Below, one piece after another: positions 9,256 to 18,436 of a stretch of 64,000 bases of DNA. A model generated the notes under the pieces. That model searched no databases. It was not told where the DNA came from and saw only the letters and a program-made list of their open reading frames with translations. Made by a program: the position numbers and the translations under genes. Source of the stretch: Streptomyces sp. NBC_00659 (GTDB lineage Bacteria > Actinomycetota > Actinomycetes > Streptomycetales > Streptomycetaceae); NCBI RefSeq assembly GCF_036226925.1, contig NZ_CP109031.1, forward strand, positions 5,146,001-5,210,000, written 5' to 3'. The first letter of the stretch is position 1, and each line of letters starts with the position of its first letter.

Positions 9256-9708
9256 ATGGACACGACCGGTCGTCGACGCAACCCCTATGAACTGACCGAG
9301 GAGACCCCGGTCTACGTCATCTCGGTGGCGGCCCAGCTCTCCGGACTGCACCCGCAGACCCTGCGTCAGTACGACCGGCTCGGTCTGGTCTCTCCCGACC
9401 GTACGGCCGGCCGGGGCCGCCGTTACTCGGCCCGCGACATCGAGCTGCTGCGCACCGTCCAGCAGTTGTCGCAGGACGAGGGCATCAACCTCGCCGGCAT
9501 CAAGCGCATCATCGAGCTGGAGAACCAGGTGGCCGCGCTCCAGTCCCGTGTCGCGGAGCTGGAGTCGGCCCTCGACGGTGCCGCGGCCGCCATGCAGCAG
9601 CGCGAGGCCGCCGTGCACGCCTCCTACCGGCGTGACCTGGTCCCGTACCAGGAGGTCCAGCAGACGAGCGCGCTGGTGGTGTGGCGTCCCAAGCGGGCGG
9701 CCGACTGA
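9256..9708 (+). CDS. hspR: Heat-shock repressor HspR (MerR family)
   Basis: A 150-residue DNA-binding repressor. The MerR-type winged helix-turn-helix is at about residues 19-64 (VYVISVAAQLSGLHPQTLRQ, then YDRLGLVSPDRTAGRGRRYS) and is followed by a coiled-coil (IIELENQVAALQSRVAELES). Known HspR binds HAIR inverted repeats with DnaK as co-repressor. The operon's own promoter and clpB (15.7 kb) both carry such sites in this window. ATG 9256 follows the dnaJ stop by 7 bp with GACGGAG as ribosome site; the upstream in-frame extension overlaps dnaJ and is not used. Confidence 0.97.
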   Translation: MDTTGRRRNPYELTEETPVYVISVAAQLSGLHPQTLRQYDRLGLVSPDRTAGRGRRYSARDIELLRTVQQLSQDEGINLAGIKRIIELENQVAALQSRVAELESALDGAAAAMQQREAAVHASYRRDLVPYQEVQQTSALVVWRPKRAAD

Positions 9709-9741
9709 ACCCGGTCGCCCGGGCGGTACCGGACGAACCCG

Positions 9742-9776
9742 AAGGGCCCGGAGGTCATCGACCTCCGGGCCCTTTC
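9742..9776 (+). terminator. Terminator of dnaK operon
   Basis: A perfect 14-bp stem (AAGGGCCCGGAGGT / ACCTCCGGGCCCTT) with a CATCG loop and a short trailing T run lies 33 bp after the hspR stop. Confidence 0.9.
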
Positions 9777-10369
9777 GCGTGCCCCGCGCTTTCCGGCCGG
9801 AGCGGCGAGGTTGACCGTTTTTGACCGAGTGGCTGAAACCTTCTCCCTGAGGTCTGTTTTGCGTATGTCGTCCGTATAGGCCCGGTGGCGGAGGTTCGGG
9901 ACGTCCCTTTCGTCGTGCGGGAGCGGGCGGCGATAAGAGGTGTTCGCGGTGAATTGCCGTCAATGAAGCGGCGGTGTGCGCTTGGTCACTGCGAGGGCGG
10001 CCGCGCCGGCCGCGCCGAGTGGCCGGCGCGCAGGGGTGAGCGTGGGGGCCGAGGTGGGGGCGCCTCGCGCGGGAGTGTCCTTGTCCATGTGTTTCTTCGG
10101 GTCTGACCGATCGTCAACGGCGGTTAAAAACCGTCGGCGATCGCGACTCCTGTGAACGGACGTGGGATGTCCATGTGAATGACGGAAGGTGAAGCTGAGG
10201 GGATCGATCGGTGGATGGGCGTAGTATTTTCCCGTCGCGTTCACTTGTGGAACACGAAACGCCGTTGCCATCTCGTTAAGTGATTACTCCTTGACGCTGA
10301 GGTGATCGCCGCGTTGGCTTTCAGCCACCTGGGTCGCAATGCTGCAACCTCGCCCGGAAGGCACCTGCT
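9777..10369. other. Long intergenic region before sugar-binding protein
   Basis: About 590 bp after the terminator with no convincing gene. A 73-residue open frame at 9885 lacks family resemblance and good coding bias. Near the downstream gene there is GTTC-N7-GAAC at 10239-10253, a possible operator, and TTGACG at 10291-10296 that could be a -35, with TTGGCT 17 bp later as a poor -10. This fits a carbohydrate-regulated promoter for the lipoprotein gene, but that is inference. Confidence 0.4.
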
Positions 10370-11494
10370 GTGAAGACTCGTAACACCGGCCTCCGCCGTA
10401 CCGTCATAGCCGTGGCGTCGTCCGCCACGGCCCTCACCCTCGCCGGATGCGGCGTGGTCGACTTCGGTGGGAGTGGGAGCTCGGCCAGCGCCACGAAGGG
10501 CGACGACATCACGGTCGGCCTGCTCCTTCCGGAGAAGGAGAACACCCGTTACGAGAAGTTCGACTACCCGATCATCCGGGAGCAGGTTCAGAAGCTCACC
10601 GAGAAGCAGGGTGACGTCCTCTACCTGAACGCGGAGCAGGACGCTGCCAAGCAGCTCCGCCAGATGCAGCAGATGATCGACGACAAGGTCGACGTCATCC
10701 TCGTGGACGCCGTGGACTCGGTGTCGATCGCGAAGGGCGTGCGCAAGGCCAAGGAGGCCGGGATCCCGGTCATCGCCTACGACCGTCTGGCGCAGGGTCC
10801 GATCGACGCGTACATCTCCTTCGACAACGAGCTGGTCGGCGAGACCCAGGGCAAGGCCCTGGCGGCCGCGCTGGGCTCCGACACGGCCTCGAAGAAGATC
10901 ATCATGATGAACGGCTCGTTGACCGACCCGAACGCCGCGCAGTTCAAGAAGGGCGCCGAGTCCGAGCTCAAGGACAAGGTGATCGTCGCCGCCGAGTACG
11001 ACACCAAGGACTGGAACCCGGTCAACGCCAAGGCCAACATGGAGAAGTCCATCCAGGCCGTGGGTCTGAGCAACATCGCCGGTGTCTACGCCGCCAACGA
11101 CGGCATCGCGGGCGCGGTCATCGACGTCTTCAAGGCCGCGGGTGTCAGCAAGGTGCCGCCGGTCACCGGTCAGGACTCCGAGCTCATCGCCGTGCAGCGG
11201 ATCATCAAGGGCGACCAGTACATGAGCGTGTACAAGTCGTACCCGCAGGAGGCCAACGCCGCCGCCGAGATGGCCGTCGCCCGGGTCCAGGGACGGACGA
11301 TCGAGTTCGACGCGCTCACCCGCGACAAGGTCAGCAGCCCCACGAACAAGGACGTCCCGTCCCAGCTCGTGCCCGTGGTGGCCCTCACCAAGGAAAACAT
11401 CGAGAACACGGTCGTCCAGGACGGCATCTACACCGTCGACAAGATCTGCACGACGGCCTACAAGGCGCTCTGCAGCTCGCTCGGCATCAAGTAG
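10370..11494 (+). CDS. Sugar ABC transporter substrate-binding lipoprotein (XylF/RbsB type)
   Basis: A 374-residue periplasmic-binding-protein type I fold, exported and lipid-anchored. The signal peptide ends in the lipobox LAGC with Cys27. The body has the expected order of ITVGLLLPEKENTRYEKFD, QMIDDKVDVILVDAVDS, EAGIPVIAYDR, GVYAANDGIAGAVIDVFK and VTGQDSELIAVQRIIKGDQ, closest to the xylose-binding group. GTG 10370 gives a proper signal peptide. No ATPase or permease gene lies next to it: the neighbours are hspR and a LuxR regulator. It must therefore work with a transporter encoded elsewhere or act as a sensor. Sugar specificity is not visible. Confidence 0.9.
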   Translation: MKTRNTGLRRTVIAVASSATALTLAGCGVVDFGGSGSSASATKGDDITVGLLLPEKENTRYEKFDYPIIREQVQKLTEKQGDVLYLNAEQDAAKQLRQMQQMIDDKVDVILVDAVDSVSIAKGVRKAKEAGIPVIAYDRLAQGPIDAYISFDNELVGETQGKALAAALGSDTASKKIIMMNGSLTDPNAAQFKKGAESELKDKVIVAAEYDTKDWNPVNAKANMEKSIQAVGLSNIAGVYAANDGIAGAVIDVFKAAGVSKVPPVTGQDSELIAVQRIIKGDQYMSVYKSYPQEANAAAEMAVARVQGRTIEFDALTRDKVSSPTNKDVPSQLVPVVALTKENIENTVVQDGIYTVDKICTTAYKALCSSLGIK

Positions 11495-12182: not shown

Positions 12183-13247
12183 ATGGCCGGGCACGGGACG
12201 GACAGGCATCCGCACGGCGCTGACCGGCTGTGTGATGCGGGCGACCGGGTGTACTCCCGGGCCGTGCGCCGGGGCCGGGTGCCCCGCGAGGACGCCGAGG
12301 CGGTGCCCTGCCTGCTGGAGCTGGCGCTGCTGCACCCCGATCCGGACGACATGGACTGGCTGGTGCCGACCTCGCCCCAGGAGGTCATGACCCGGCTCCT
12401 GCGAGGCGTGTACGAGGAAGTCAGCGCGAGCCAGGCGCGAGTGGGCGACGCGGTGTCGGCCTTCGAGTGGTACGCGGGTCTCGGCGGCCGGGTGCGGGCG
12501 CCGGCCGAAGGGGTGGCGATCCGGGTCCTGGACGGGCTGCCGCGGATCCACGCCGCCATGGACAAGGCGACCGAGGAATGCACCCGTGAGGTCCTGACGG
12601 TGCAGCCGGGCGGCATCCGGCGCGAGGACGAACTCGTCGAGGGGCTGCACCGGGCGCTGGAGATGCGCCGGCGCGGGGTGCGCATGCGCGATCTCTACAC
12701 CCATGTGGCCCGGCACGGCCAAGGCCTCCTGAACTACATGGAGTTGATGGGCGACGCCGCCGAGGCCCGCACCCTCGACGAGGTGGTGGAGCGGCTCATC
12801 CTGTTCGACCGCACGGTCGCCTTCATCCCCGCCAACTCGGACCGCACGATCGCGCTGGAGCTGCGCCACCCCGCGCTGGTGGACTACCTGGGGACGGTCT
12901 TCGAACGGCTGTGGCGCCTCGGGATCCCGCTGACCTCGCCCATGCCCTCGACGGGCATCGAGGGCATCACCCACCGGGAGCGGTCCATCGCGGCGCTGCT
13001 CGCCGAGGGGCATCAGGACGCGGTCGTCGCGGAGCGGCTGGGCATCAGCGTGCGGACCTGCCGGGCGCACATCGCCCGGCTCTCGGAGACGCTGGGCGCG
13101 GCGAGCCGGACGCAGCTGGGCGTGCGGATCGCCCAGGCGGGTCTCGACGGGCCGCAGCGTTCCCCCGAATTCGAGCCGGTCCCCGTCGCGGAGGCCGCGT
13201 CGGGAGCGCCCGCCGTCCCCGACCGCGGATCCCCGGCCGGCCGCTGA
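12183..13247 (+). CDS. LuxR-type transcriptional regulator A
   Basis: A 354-residue regulator. The last ~90 residues hold a LuxR/FixJ helix-turn-helix (about 261-320: GITHRERSIAALLAEGHQDA, VVAERLGISVRTCRAHIARL). The N-terminal ~250 residues (CLLELALLHPDPDDMDWLVP ... ILFDRTVAFIPANSDRTIAL) form an effector domain of the TrmB/PLD-like type found in many Streptomyces solo regulators. It lacks a receiver Asp pocket, so it is not a classical response regulator. It is a clear paralogue of the convergent gene at 13315, sharing LLHPDPDD, LTVQPGG, LFDRTVAFIPA and VRTCRAHIA. It has a Pro/Ala-rich C-terminal tail. Its target may be the DSGW cassette. Confidence 0.8.
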   Translation: MAGHGTDRHPHGADRLCDAGDRVYSRAVRRGRVPREDAEAVPCLLELALLHPDPDDMDWLVPTSPQEVMTRLLRGVYEEVSASQARVGDAVSAFEWYAGLGGRVRAPAEGVAIRVLDGLPRIHAAMDKATEECTREVLTVQPGGIRREDELVEGLHRALEMRRRGVRMRDLYTHVARHGQGLLNYMELMGDAAEARTLDEVVERLILFDRTVAFIPANSDRTIALELRHPALVDYLGTVFERLWRLGIPLTSPMPSTGIEGITHRERSIAALLAEGHQDAVVAERLGISVRTCRAHIARLSETLGAASRTQLGVRIAQAGLDGPQRSPEFEPVPVAEAASGAPAVPDRGSPAGR

Positions 13248-13314: not shown

Positions 13315-14307
13315 TCACTCGCCTCCCTCGGGCTGGTCCAGGAGTCCCGACTGCGCTATCAGGAAGCCGAGTTGGGCCCGGCTCCCGCTGCCGAGGGCGG
13401 AGGCCAGCTTGGCGATGTGGGCGCGGCAGGTACGGACGTTCATGCCCAGGCGGCGGGCGATGGCCTCGTCCACGTGCCCCTCGATGAGCAGTTTGGCGAT
13501 GGAGCGCTGGACGCCGGTGATGCCGTTGGGCCCGACATCGTTCGGGACGTTCTCGGTGAGGGGGACCGCCCGCTGCCAGAGCTGCTCGAAGACCTTGCTC
13601 AGGTACATCACGAGTCCGGGGTGGCGGAGTTCGAGGGCGACCCGCCGGTCGTCGCTGGCCGGGATGAAGGCGACGGTCCGGTCGAAGATGATCAGCCGCT
13701 CGATGAGTTCCTCGAGCGTACGCACCTGGATCCGGCCGCCGGATATGCGCTCCACGTAGGCGAGCGTCCCCTGGCTGTGCCGTGCGGTGTGCTGGTACAG
13801 CGTGCGGATGCGCACGCCCCGGTCGGTGAGCGGCCTGTCGCGCTCCAGGGCCTGCATCAGGGCGTCGGCGGGCCGGCCGCCGCCCGGCTGGATCGTCAGC
13901 ATCTCCGTCTGGCACTCGGCGGTGGCCGAATTGAGCGCCGCGTTGATCCGGTCGAATCCCTCCAGGACGGTGATCGCGTGGATACTCGCGGTGCTCTGTG
14001 TGCTGATCGCGATGAACGGATCGAAGGAGTCTGTCAGTTCGATCGCGAGCCGCCGGCGTTCCTGGATCTCCCGTTCCAGGGGCTGCAGGCGCTGGGCGAG
14101 CGCGACCGACGGCGGGACGGGACGCAGCCACTTCTCGTCGTCGGGGTCGGGATGAAGCAGTGCGAACTCCAAGAGGCAGGGGGCCGTTTCCACTTCGACC
14201 CGGGTGATGCGGCCGGAGTGCAACGCACTGGCGTAAAGGCGTGTTCCTTCGTCACACAACGTGGTGACAGCGTGGGGATGTGTCGGTTGTGAGTTGTTTG
14301 TGGGCAA
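13315..14307 (-). CDS. LuxR-type transcriptional regulator B
   Basis: A 330-residue paralogue of the regulator at 12183, convergent with it. The effector domain covers about residues 1-250 (CLLEFALLHPDPDDEKWLRP, LIIFDRTVAFIPASDDRRVA) and the LuxR helix-turn-helix about 262-323 (GITGVQRSIAKLLIEGHVDE, AIARRLGMNVRTCRAHIAKL). It has no receiver domain. ATG 14307 is 113 bp from, and divergent to, the DSGW-repeat peptide gene, so the two share a promoter region and this protein is the most likely direct regulator of the cassette. That link is inference from position. Confidence 0.8.
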   Translation of the reverse strand: MPTNNSQPTHPHAVTTLCDEGTRLYASALHSGRITRVEVETAPCLLEFALLHPDPDDEKWLRPVPPSVALAQRLQPLEREIQERRRLAIELTDSFDPFIAISTQSTASIHAITVLEGFDRINAALNSATAECQTEMLTIQPGGGRPADALMQALERDRPLTDRGVRIRTLYQHTARHSQGTLAYVERISGGRIQVRTLEELIERLIIFDRTVAFIPASDDRRVALELRHPGLVMYLSKVFEQLWQRAVPLTENVPNDVGPNGITGVQRSIAKLLIEGHVDEAIARRLGMNVRTCRAHIAKLASALGSGSRAQLGFLIAQSGLLDQPEGGE

Positions 14308-14420
14308 ATCTCCACCCCCCAGGGTCCTGAACGTGCAGGAACATGATGCATCGCTGCTGTGGCATTGACGTGCCTGAATGAGCCATCGTCTTGTGACGAC
14401 GGGGGAGAAGATTCCATCAA
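14308..14420. promoter_or_regulatory. Divergent promoter between LuxR regulator B and DSGW cassette
   Basis: 113 bp, with TTGACG at 14365-14370 as a possible -35 for the cassette and several direct TGCAGGAACATGATGCA-like symmetric words around 14334-14350. GGGGGAGAAG at 14401-14410 precedes the cassette start. It is short enough that one regulator could control both genes. Confidence 0.4.
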
Positions 14421-14786
14421 GTGAGGACGAAGCCGACTATGCGAGCGAGATTGCTTGGTTCAGTGCTTGCCGCAGTCTTCTCTGTCGCTGTGGCGTCCGG
14501 CTCCCTGGGAGCCTCGGGTCTTGATGCCGGGGGTGCCCGGACCGGGGCCGGCCCGGACAGCGGTTGGACCAGCGTGAAGGCGACCCCGCCGGACAGCGGC
14601 TGGACCTCCGCCGAGGCGGTCCCCGGGGACAGCGGCTGGACCGACATCGAGGCCGCGGCGCTCCCGGGCGACAGCGGCTGGACCAGCGTGAAGGCGACCC
14701 CGGCGGACAGTGGCTGGAACGTCGCCGAGGCCTCGGCGCTGGGGGACAGCGGCTGGACGGTCATCTCCGCGAGCGCAGAAGCATGA
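14421..14786 (+). CDS. Secreted peptide with six DSGW repeats (candidate peptide precursor)
   Basis: A 121-residue protein. Residues 7-33 (MRARLLGSVLAAVFSVAVAS then GSLGA) form a Sec-type signal peptide. From residue 46 to the end, six units each begin with DSGW, 12-14 residues apart: DSGWTSVKATPP, DSGWTSAEAVPG, DSGWTDIEAAALPG, DSGWTSVKATPA, DSGWNVAEASALG, DSGWTVISASAEA. The consensus is DSGWTSxxAxP. The mature part is almost only repeats, with no Cys. The start may be GTG 14421 or ATG 14439. The stop overlaps the next gene as ATGA. Tandem identical short units after a signal peptide recall multi-copy peptide precursors, either ribosomal natural products or signals, but no family is recognised with certainty. 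Confidence 0.75.
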   Translation: MRTKPTMRARLLGSVLAAVFSVAVASGSLGASGLDAGGARTGAGPDSGWTSVKATPPDSGWTSAEAVPGDSGWTDIEAAALPGDSGWTSVKATPADSGWNVAEASALGDSGWTVISASAEA

Positions 14787-15118
14787 GCATTCCGCCCGAC
14801 GACCGCTCCTTCCGCCGAGAGATGGCCACCGCCTACCGGTCCGGCTGGCACTTCATCGACCTGGTCACCGCCATCCCCTACAGCGGCGACTCGCTGATGG
14901 TGACCGTCTTCGGAGAGCCCGTCGTCGTCACCCGCGACGACGACGAGGACGTACGGGCCTACCGGTGTCTGCGGCGGCCTCGGGGGGCGCCGCAGCCCGT
15001 CCGGTGCGCCATCCGGTACGGAATGATCTTCGTCAACCTCGACCAGCGCGACCACCAGCTCACCGGGCCTGACGTCCCGGACATCGAGACCATCGCAGCC
15101 ACCCCCCGCAGTGCCTGA
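14783..15118 (+). CDS. Small Rieske-like protein without metal ligands
   Basis: A 111-residue protein whose core GDSLMVTVFGEPVVVTRDDD, then VRAYRCLRRPRGAPQPV and YGMIFVNLDQR, follows the strand order of the N-terminal Rieske domain of ring-hydroxylating oxygenases (LLVTVLGEPVVLTRD ... C-x-H-RGA ... C-x-x-H-G ... FVNLD). Both His ligands are replaced by Arg (CLR and CAIR) and the loop between them is shortened, so a 2Fe-2S cluster seems impossible. The catalytic domain is missing. ATG 14783 overlaps the DSGW-peptide stop (ATGA), so the two are made together. It may bind or present the peptide; that is speculation. The Rieske relation is moderately sure. Confidence 0.6.
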   Translation: MSIPPDDRSFRREMATAYRSGWHFIDLVTAIPYSGDSLMVTVFGEPVVVTRDDDEDVRAYRCLRRPRGAPQPVRCAIRYGMIFVNLDQRDHQLTGPDVPDIETIAATPRSA

Positions 15119-15279: not shown

Positions 15280-15693
15280 TCATCCGCGGCCCATCGCCGC
15301 CGTGAGCTCGATCTCGATCGCCACCCGGGACGGGTTCGGCGACGGCACGCGCTCGTAGCGCTCCGTGTGGCGCCGCACCGCCTCCGCGACACGCGCCGGG
15401 TCCGTGGAGACCCGTGCCCGCCCCTCCAGCGTCGCCCAGCGCCGGCCGTCCACCTGGCAGACCGCCACGCGGGCCCCGTCCGGCCCGGCCGCCAGTACGT
15501 GGGCCGCCTTCCGGCTGGACTTGTCGGTGATGACCCGAGCGAGACCGGCCTCGGGGTCGTATGTAACGCCGACGGGCACCACGTGCGGGCTGCCGTCGGG
15601 CCGGAGGGTGGTGAGTGTGCACAGATGGCGCTCGCGCCAGAAGCTCAGGTAGGCGGCGTCGGGCTGCCGCGGGTCCACCGGATAGGAAGCCAT
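15280..15693 (-). CDS. PPOX-class F420/FMN-dependent oxidoreductase
   Basis: A 137-residue split-barrel protein of the pyridoxamine-phosphate-oxidase-like superfamily. It begins YLSFWRERHLCTLTTLRPDG, then SPHVVPVGVTYDPEAGLARV and SRKAAHVLAAGPDGARVAV and WATLEGRARVSTDPARV, as in F420-dependent PPOX enzymes of actinobacteria. It probably reduces an unknown small molecule with F420H2 or binds flavin. ATG 15693 was chosen because the upstream frame runs into the clpB control region. It is divergent from clpB, and the clpB HAIR site lies 50 bp upstream of its start, so HspR could also affect it. The substrate is unknown. Confidence 0.85.
   Translation of the reverse strand: MASYPVDPRQPDAAYLSFWRERHLCTLTTLRPDGSPHVVPVGVTYDPEAGLARVITDKSSRKAAHVLAAGPDGARVAVCQVDGRRWATLEGRARVSTDPARVAEAVRRHTERYERVPSPNPSRVAIEIELTAAMGRG

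Positions 15694-15823: not shown

Positions 15824-18436
<2,613 letters not shown>

Follow-up and report, generated by a model that had tools for sequence, protein, structure and literature searches.

What does a short protein made up of an export signal and six DSGW units do, and which of its neighbours reads those units? The question comes from a window of 64,000 nucleotides, the whole stretch analysed here, in the 9.66-Mb chromosome of Streptomyces sp. NBC_00659. A preliminary description had proposed that this protein, ORF A, is a multi-copy peptide precursor and that the Rieske-like protein B, encoded directly downstream, binds, carries, or modifies each unit. The layout on which it was built holds. 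A has 121 codons from GTG 14421 to the stop codon at 14784-14786, with a basic N-terminus and a hydrophobic stretch followed by six DSGW units; their Asp codons lie at 14556, 14592, 14628, 14670, 14706, and 14745, which gives spacings of 12, 12, 14, 12, and 13 aa. The stop of A overlaps the start of the 111-aa B in an ATGA (B ATG 14783, stop 15118), and 113 bp separate GTG 14421 from the TTG start, at 14307, of the divergent LuxR regulator LuxB. ATG 14439, giving a product of 115 aa, is the likelier start of A, because GTGAGGACGAAGCCGA, which precedes it, shows conservation at the DNA level also in loci in which the reading frame across it is broken; an AGGA Shine-Dalgarno sequence lies inside GTGAGGACGAAGCCGA, upstream of ATG 14439. 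Coordinates are collected in Table 1. We assigned the names clpB, hspR, PPOX-like, and carrier protein presumptively, from our own reading of the sequences.

Table 1. Features of the A/LuxB locus and of two related peptide-LuxR pairs (window coordinates unless a locus or contig is named)
Feature	Position	Strand	Remark
LuxA	12183-13247	+	LuxB paralogue, 50% identical; control, motif code not followed
LuxB	13315-14307	-	proposed peptide receptor and regulator; TrmB/PLD-like domain ~108-255, LuxR HTH ~260-328
Conserved intergenic block, 39 bp, candidate LuxB operator	14311..14349	.	conserved across 214 distinct loci
ORF A, candidate pheromone precursor	14421..14786	+	adjoins B in 259/260 loci; 211 distinct sequences
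Signal-peptide-like N-terminus of A, MRARLLGSVLAAVFSVAVASG...	14439..14510	+	read from sequence; relatives have the same basic-hydrophobic pattern
Six DSGW[T/N] units of A	14556..14786	+	copy identity limited to -3..0 (partly +1) around Trp
ORF B, Rieske-fold remnant without cluster ligands	14783..15118	+	translationally coupled to A
Short PPOX-like gene	15280-15693	-	
clpB	15824-18436	+	
Second pair	precursor L282:531-818; LuxR G000:C1:6797493-6798485 (L290)	precursor -	divergent; three DAGWQ units
SCO2686-type pair, L407	precursor 1159-1320; LuxR 1351-2481	precursor -; LuxR +	

We collected 260 loci with B across Streptomyces genomes, drawing on named and unnamed sets that share some members. 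In 259 of these loci, A and B are neighbours, and A together with a divergent LuxB is likewise found in 259 of 260; the sole locus with B and no recognisable A is L197 (genome G168). The first motif count covered 208 distinct A sequences, which became 211 once four missed loci had been added. Between 1 and 10 motif copies occur in 206 of the 208 and none in two. These two exceptions, L066 and L089, are ITEW and FTEW precursors with neither an acid nor Asn at the first position, and their LuxB proteins have Leu136. In the mature regions of the 208 proteins, D, E, or N stands at position -3 for 584 of 593 Trp residues, and 41 different tetrapeptides of the form [D/E/N]-x1-x2-W are used across A proteins, among them DSGW, DSTW, DSVW, DSHW, DTSW, DTVW, DVGW, DIGW, DITW, DLGW, EISW, EPSW, and NSSW. 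What stays constant is not DSGW as a whole: the acid/Asn and the Trp are kept, and the x-x between them depends on the species.

Copies are uniform in 149 of 159 multi-copy A proteins; none of 10,000 shuffles yielded more than 15 uniform proteins. Tetrapeptides agree in 862 of 876 copy pairs within proteins versus 8,784 of 143,040 pairs between proteins (208-A set); with the added loci, the agreement within proteins is 866 of 880 pairs from 161 multi-copy proteins. Position by position, copy identity is 1.00, 0.99, 0.99, and 1.00 from -3 to 0, then 0.60 at +1, 0.39 at -4, and 0.31 at +2. Codons nevertheless differ in 498 of the 866 copy pairs that share all four residues: 125 of the 161 multi-copy A vary synonymously only, 10 vary in residues (mixed copies), and 26 are identical in DNA. 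These comparisons indicate that the copies are kept alike by selection while the rest drifts, and that they are not recent duplications. Such sameness despite codon drift is expected if all copies must be recognised by something. Reading A as a secreted-type multi-copy precursor thus gained support, with a signal as the most likely product class.

What, then, recognises the motif? Where LuxA distance is 0-3%, LuxB distance is 0.020 for pairs with the same motif (n = 10) versus 0.210 for pairs with different motifs (n = 15); at a LuxA distance of 3-6%, the corresponding values are 0.055 (n = 17) and 0.227 (n = 61). The overall effect was matched by 0 of 2,000 label permutations. Motif and LuxB hence change together while LuxA stays put, as pherotypes do. 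Since joint change could be linkage, we examined individual LuxB columns; LuxB pairs of similar distance were compared (5,596 pairs from 169 representatives), and motifs were shuffled inside clades. For x1, column 136 reached a z of 42.9, with the next column at 4.9 and the threshold at 4.65. The second variable position, x2, tracks columns 146, 145, 143, and 151 (z 9.2, 8.4, 5.5, and 5.4), and the residue after Trp tracks columns 149, 221, and 181 (z 20.5, 19.8, and 17.8); LuxB correlates of x0 (D/E/N) are weak.

The pairing between x1 and residue 136 is close to a one-letter code. Among 214 distinct LuxB proteins, Ser goes with Met136 in 99 of 99 cases, and Met is found in 0 of the 115 non-Ser cases, which comprise Thr-Val (50), Thr-Leu (3), Ile-Val (28), Leu-Val (10), Val-Val (8), Pro-Leu (14), and two odd x1 cases with Val136. 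Normalised information with the Ser/non-Ser state is 0.87 for LuxB 136 and 0.28 for the next LuxB column; the best column of LuxA reaches 0.14 (141 loci) and that of B 0.27. With column 136 left out of the LuxB tree, at least 24 switches between Ser and non-Ser are needed, and Met136 matches that state at each of the 214 tips; 37 changes are counted on the LuxA tree (141 loci) and 45 on the B tree. Because residue 136 changes so reliably with the motif, the A motif and LuxB 136 are very probably in contact, and we hold with high confidence that LuxB recognises the motif directly. As motif readers, LuxA (Val136 in 23 of 23) and LuxC (Ser-Met rule followed in only 22 of 45) were both rejected. 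LuxC denotes extra LuxR copies that lie between LuxA and LuxB at many loci (for example, L092:3704-4687) and that might be decoys or second receptors.

The rule was followed into further genomes. All 16 parsed loci in further Streptomyces genomes obey the Ser-Met rule (21 new-genome loci, of which five were unparsed and left out of the count); four of the 16 repeat a LuxB already used (98-100% identical), so 12 of 12 new LuxB proteins agree. At L340 (DTRW) and L343 (DTAW), both with Val136, the nearest known relative carries DSxW. A genus of another family in the same class gave DSSW with Met in 2/2 and DTxW with Leu in 5/5 cases (rule 7/7), with Met beside DSSW at L394 and Leu beside DTSW or DTTW at L391, L395, L397, and L398. 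From residue 136, x1 was predicted beforehand as DSxW at L392 and as DTxW at L390, L396, L399, and L400; predictions from Ile at L353-L356 and L364 were less firm. A peptide was found at two of the predicted loci only, both as expected (L392, DSSWG; L390, DTGWP). Two true pairs met in a control scan, L036 (DDSAWS) and L054 (GDSGWG), have a family LuxR with Met136. Exceptions to the exact pairing came from other branches: the SCO2686-type LuxR has Leu with DSQW (by-eye alignment), and in a second Streptomyces subfamily an x1 of Ala or Ser goes with Phe (four loci), as in DAGWQ/DSGWQ, and an x1 of Met, Leu, His, Val, Phe, Ile, or Thr goes with Val, Leu, Ile, or Cys (17 loci). Given these Phe and Leu exceptions, the strict pairing of Ser with Met is a property of the LuxB subfamily and its near kin; a wider rule of "small letter, large pocket residue" may run across the family.

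LuxB has a PLD-like ligand domain of the TrmB type. Examined for the N-terminal winged helix by which TrmB regulators would hold DNA, it aligns to TrmBL2 from residue 12 on, with a poor rmsd over the whole length, and a LuxR helix-turn-helix is present at its C-terminus. GerE was found in 120 of 120 family members checked for domain families; autoinducer-binding, TPR, and XRE domains were absent from the 12 families listed for these 120 members. No membrane histidine kinase of the agr/ComQXPA type was seen by eye among the ORFs from LuxA to clpB, some of whose proteins were also Pfam-scanned. Between LuxB and A, the 9-mer AACATGATG is present in 214 of 214 intergenic stretches, and the palindrome TCCTGAACGTGCAGGA (TCCTG-N6-CAGGA) at 14325-14340 is free of mismatches in 181 of the 214 loci. 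A 30-mer of this strongly conserved block occurs once in the genome, and a genome-wide 16-mer scan that allowed one mismatch returned 26 matches versus 21 in a backward control, an enrichment that is not clear. On the simplest reading, the palindrome is a putative autoregulatory site.

Related LuxR-peptide pairs, as judged from their sequences, exist elsewhere in the window's genome and in other families. A second pair lies 1.6 Mb off on the same chromosome; its family LuxR is 35% identical to LuxB and its precursor ends in DAGWQVTPADAGWQVTPTDAGWQ. For the second subfamily, an xxxW peptide stands beside 22 of the 30 best loci from 121 genomes, 21 of them convincing (L310 looks spurious), mostly as a single copy that forms the very C-terminus (DMGWQ, DLGWQ, DMIWQ). 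The same filter found a peptide beside 16 of 45 LuxR loci at L350-L379 and L390-L404, or 15 of 44 outside the genus, as L404 is a Streptomyces genome. A looser, by-eye reading outside Streptomyces gave 21 of 44, adding L361, L365, L366, L397, L390, and L392. Outside Streptomyces, roughly every second LuxR locus scanned lacked a recognisable peptide, and no convincing peptide was seen at 17 of the 19 loci in the scan that gave L390 and L392. On reversed sequence, the peptide-finder returned 0/30 (second subfamily) and 3/45 (L350-L379 and L390-L404); on clpB-side stretches it returned 5/71, including the true pairs L036 and L054, and 1/15 at pattern loci. The L036 pair lies next to a carrier-protein-like gene downstream of clpB, within a group of frames at 9656-10795 (-), 10616-11029 (+), and 11042-11350 (+). 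Precursors at L361, L368, L370, and L378 end in CAGCWS, CGACWE, or CTSCWG, with a Cys pair about the core that might close the signal through a disulfide.

Published work on Streptomyces coelicolor bears on the output of such pairs. SCO3664 is among the insertion targets that raise actinorhodin more than 50-fold, and SCO2686 is another listed down-modulator of actinorhodin (PMC6585502); the passages on these two genes make no mention of a peptide. LuxB of an S. violaceoruber-like genome would be SCO3664 because gene order and protein lengths fit: LuxA and LuxC of that genome have 394 and 327 aa, the lengths given for SCO3666 and SCO3665 (PMC3282765, Table 1). The assignment was made by gene order and protein lengths and not by the sequence of SCO3664 itself. 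The SCO2686 primers of PMC6585502 match without mismatch around a family member whose divergent precursor ends in DDSQWG, and ArgR sites are listed at SCO2686 (PMC5839063). S. coelicolor also has a 655-Da signal imported by BldK (PMC9640686). We do not link A to this signal, there being no mass match at the motif: A of the S. violaceoruber-like genome ends in DTIWS (620.28 Da; SDTIWS, 707.31), and its only 4-9-residue piece near 655 Da is the unrelated VAEVPAA.

We suggest that A and LuxB are, in all likelihood, a species-specific peptide pheromone and its cytoplasmic LuxR receptor. The multi-copy motif, selection for sameness, co-variation, the predicted receptor fold, the operator-like site, and the related pairs were computed; secretion, cleavage sites and processing, uptake, and the direction of regulation are steps that we infer. 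A would be exported and cut into short peptides with the core acid-x1-x2-Trp-(x), DSGW(T) in the window's version. The peptide would re-enter the hypha, probably via an oligopeptide transporter, and would bind the PLD/TrmB-like domain of LuxB. There, residue 136 would sort x1 by size (Met-Ser; Val-Thr/Ile/Leu/Val; Leu-Pro), residues 143, 145, 146, and 151 would follow x2, and residues 149, 181, and 221 would follow the residue after Trp. Binding would alter the grip of the LuxR helix-turn-helix on the intergenic palindrome, such that the pair autoregulates, and the S. coelicolor orthologue would restrain actinorhodin. It also seems likely to us that the A-derived pheromone is released and acts between cells.

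The alternative that survives best bears on this last step. LuxB might bind the DxxW of A within the cell, either ahead of export or in its place, as part of an anti-regulator or a secretion-state sensor. Co-variation suggests contact and leaves the place of contact undefined, and A and LuxB are produced side by side. However, the export-type N-terminus is kept in relatives with a differing motif region, one to ten copies of an identical core fit peptides that are cut out, the single copies of the related subfamily are mostly exactly C-terminal, and different motifs in closely related genomes suit a between-cell code; we consider intracellular binding improbable. That the units make up an antimicrobial or another ribosomal natural product, sensed by LuxB for self-protection, strikes us as very unlikely. 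The precursor is indeed secreted-type and multi-copy, and the related pair L036 adjoins a carrier-protein-like gene, but no modifying enzyme, peptidase, or exporter was seen by eye among the ORFs from LuxA to clpB, the constrained core has four to five residues, and B is without cluster ligands.

The role of B, too, we infer, and the proposal that it binds, carries, or modifies each unit has become barely tenable. Coupling to A speaks for it, with a four-base overlap of A stop and B start in 126 of 259 loci and most others within five bases, as does the conservation of B, for which 256 of 295 Streptomyces genomes gave a match (E below 1e-40 in 243, weak in 13). Its predicted structure bears out a Rieske-like fold (model pLDDT 71.9), and the catalytic domain of Rieske oxygenases is indeed missing. 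The claim that Arg replaces both His ligands did not stand: the alignment puts the first C-x-H ligand motif at Arg64 and Pro66, and the segment with the second ligand pair is shortened. B lacks the two Cys and two His of the cluster (CxH ... CxxH) and has no intact cluster motif. For its own two Cys, a joint loss was rejected, as each is lost separately in some of 121 homologues (Leu62 with Cys75 in seven, Cys62 with Thr/Ser75 in eight, both lost in one). No B column tracks the motif above background, the best value lying at the 0.27 given above against 0.87 for LuxB 136. A class-wide sample of 90 genera yielded B in Streptomyces only, whereas peptide-LuxR pairs range wider, and the second pair in the window's genome is without B, because that genome has a single B. 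With no tracking column, no cluster ligands, and an occurrence in Streptomyces only, B was rejected as the motif reader; since the motif co-varies residue by residue with the divergent LuxR, the interpretation moves from B to LuxB. Least credible of all is that the A-LuxB correlation reflects mere linkage of neighbours moving together. A and LuxB do change as a block, but linkage would raise all LuxB columns alike, whereas column 136 lies far above the others; its pairing with x1 holds through at least 24 changes and recurs both in additional genomes and in a distant family.

If A and LuxB are signal and receptor, many orphan LuxR proteins of the family would turn out to be receptors for peptides, annotation having overlooked a small gene beside each of them, and one LuxR family would gain a genetically encoded ligand with a residue-to-letter assignment. 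Tens of switches would provide a natural experiment in signal-receptor co-evolution. The peptides could also become a handle on antibiotic production, because SCO3664 insertions raised actinorhodin and SCO2686 has the same sign (PMC6585502). We did not find this signal, receptor class, or code in searches of the open-licence PubMed Central literature. On balance, we lean towards an undescribed actinobacterial peptide language, with acid-x-x-Trp-x pheromones, PLD/TrmB-like LuxR receptors, at least two channels per genome, a near one-letter code, pherotype switching by exchange of receptor-precursor blocks, and antibiotic production as one output.

Intracellular reading of a peptide pheromone is, as a principle, already known. 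RRNPP systems (Rap-Phr, PlcR-PapR, Rgg-SHP) perform peptide quorum sensing and, like A and LuxB, place a small secreted-type precursor gene beside a cytoplasmic regulator gene (259/260 loci here), use a short, species-specific core, and show co-variation of peptide and receptor. Unlike the TPR and N-terminal XRE helix-turn-helix of RRNPP regulators, LuxB joins a PLD/TrmB-like domain to a C-terminal LuxR helix-turn-helix; moreover, A often has many copies, and A/LuxB is actinobacterial. TrmB binds sugars, and LuxB differs from the archaeal regulators TrmB and TrmBL2 in having a LuxR helix-turn-helix and in tracking a peptide motif. With acyl-homoserine-lactone LuxR receptors it shares the C-terminal GerE/LuxR helix-turn-helix, but its family is without an autoinducer-binding domain among the families listed (120 members). 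B, for its part, departs from Rieske oxygenases and ferredoxins in having neither the ligand residues nor the catalytic domain. Multi-copy precursors are known from pheromones of the yeast alpha-factor type, which A resembles in its identical cores and variable spacers after an export signal; A differs from them in its core of four to five residues, its bacterial origin, and its different receptor.
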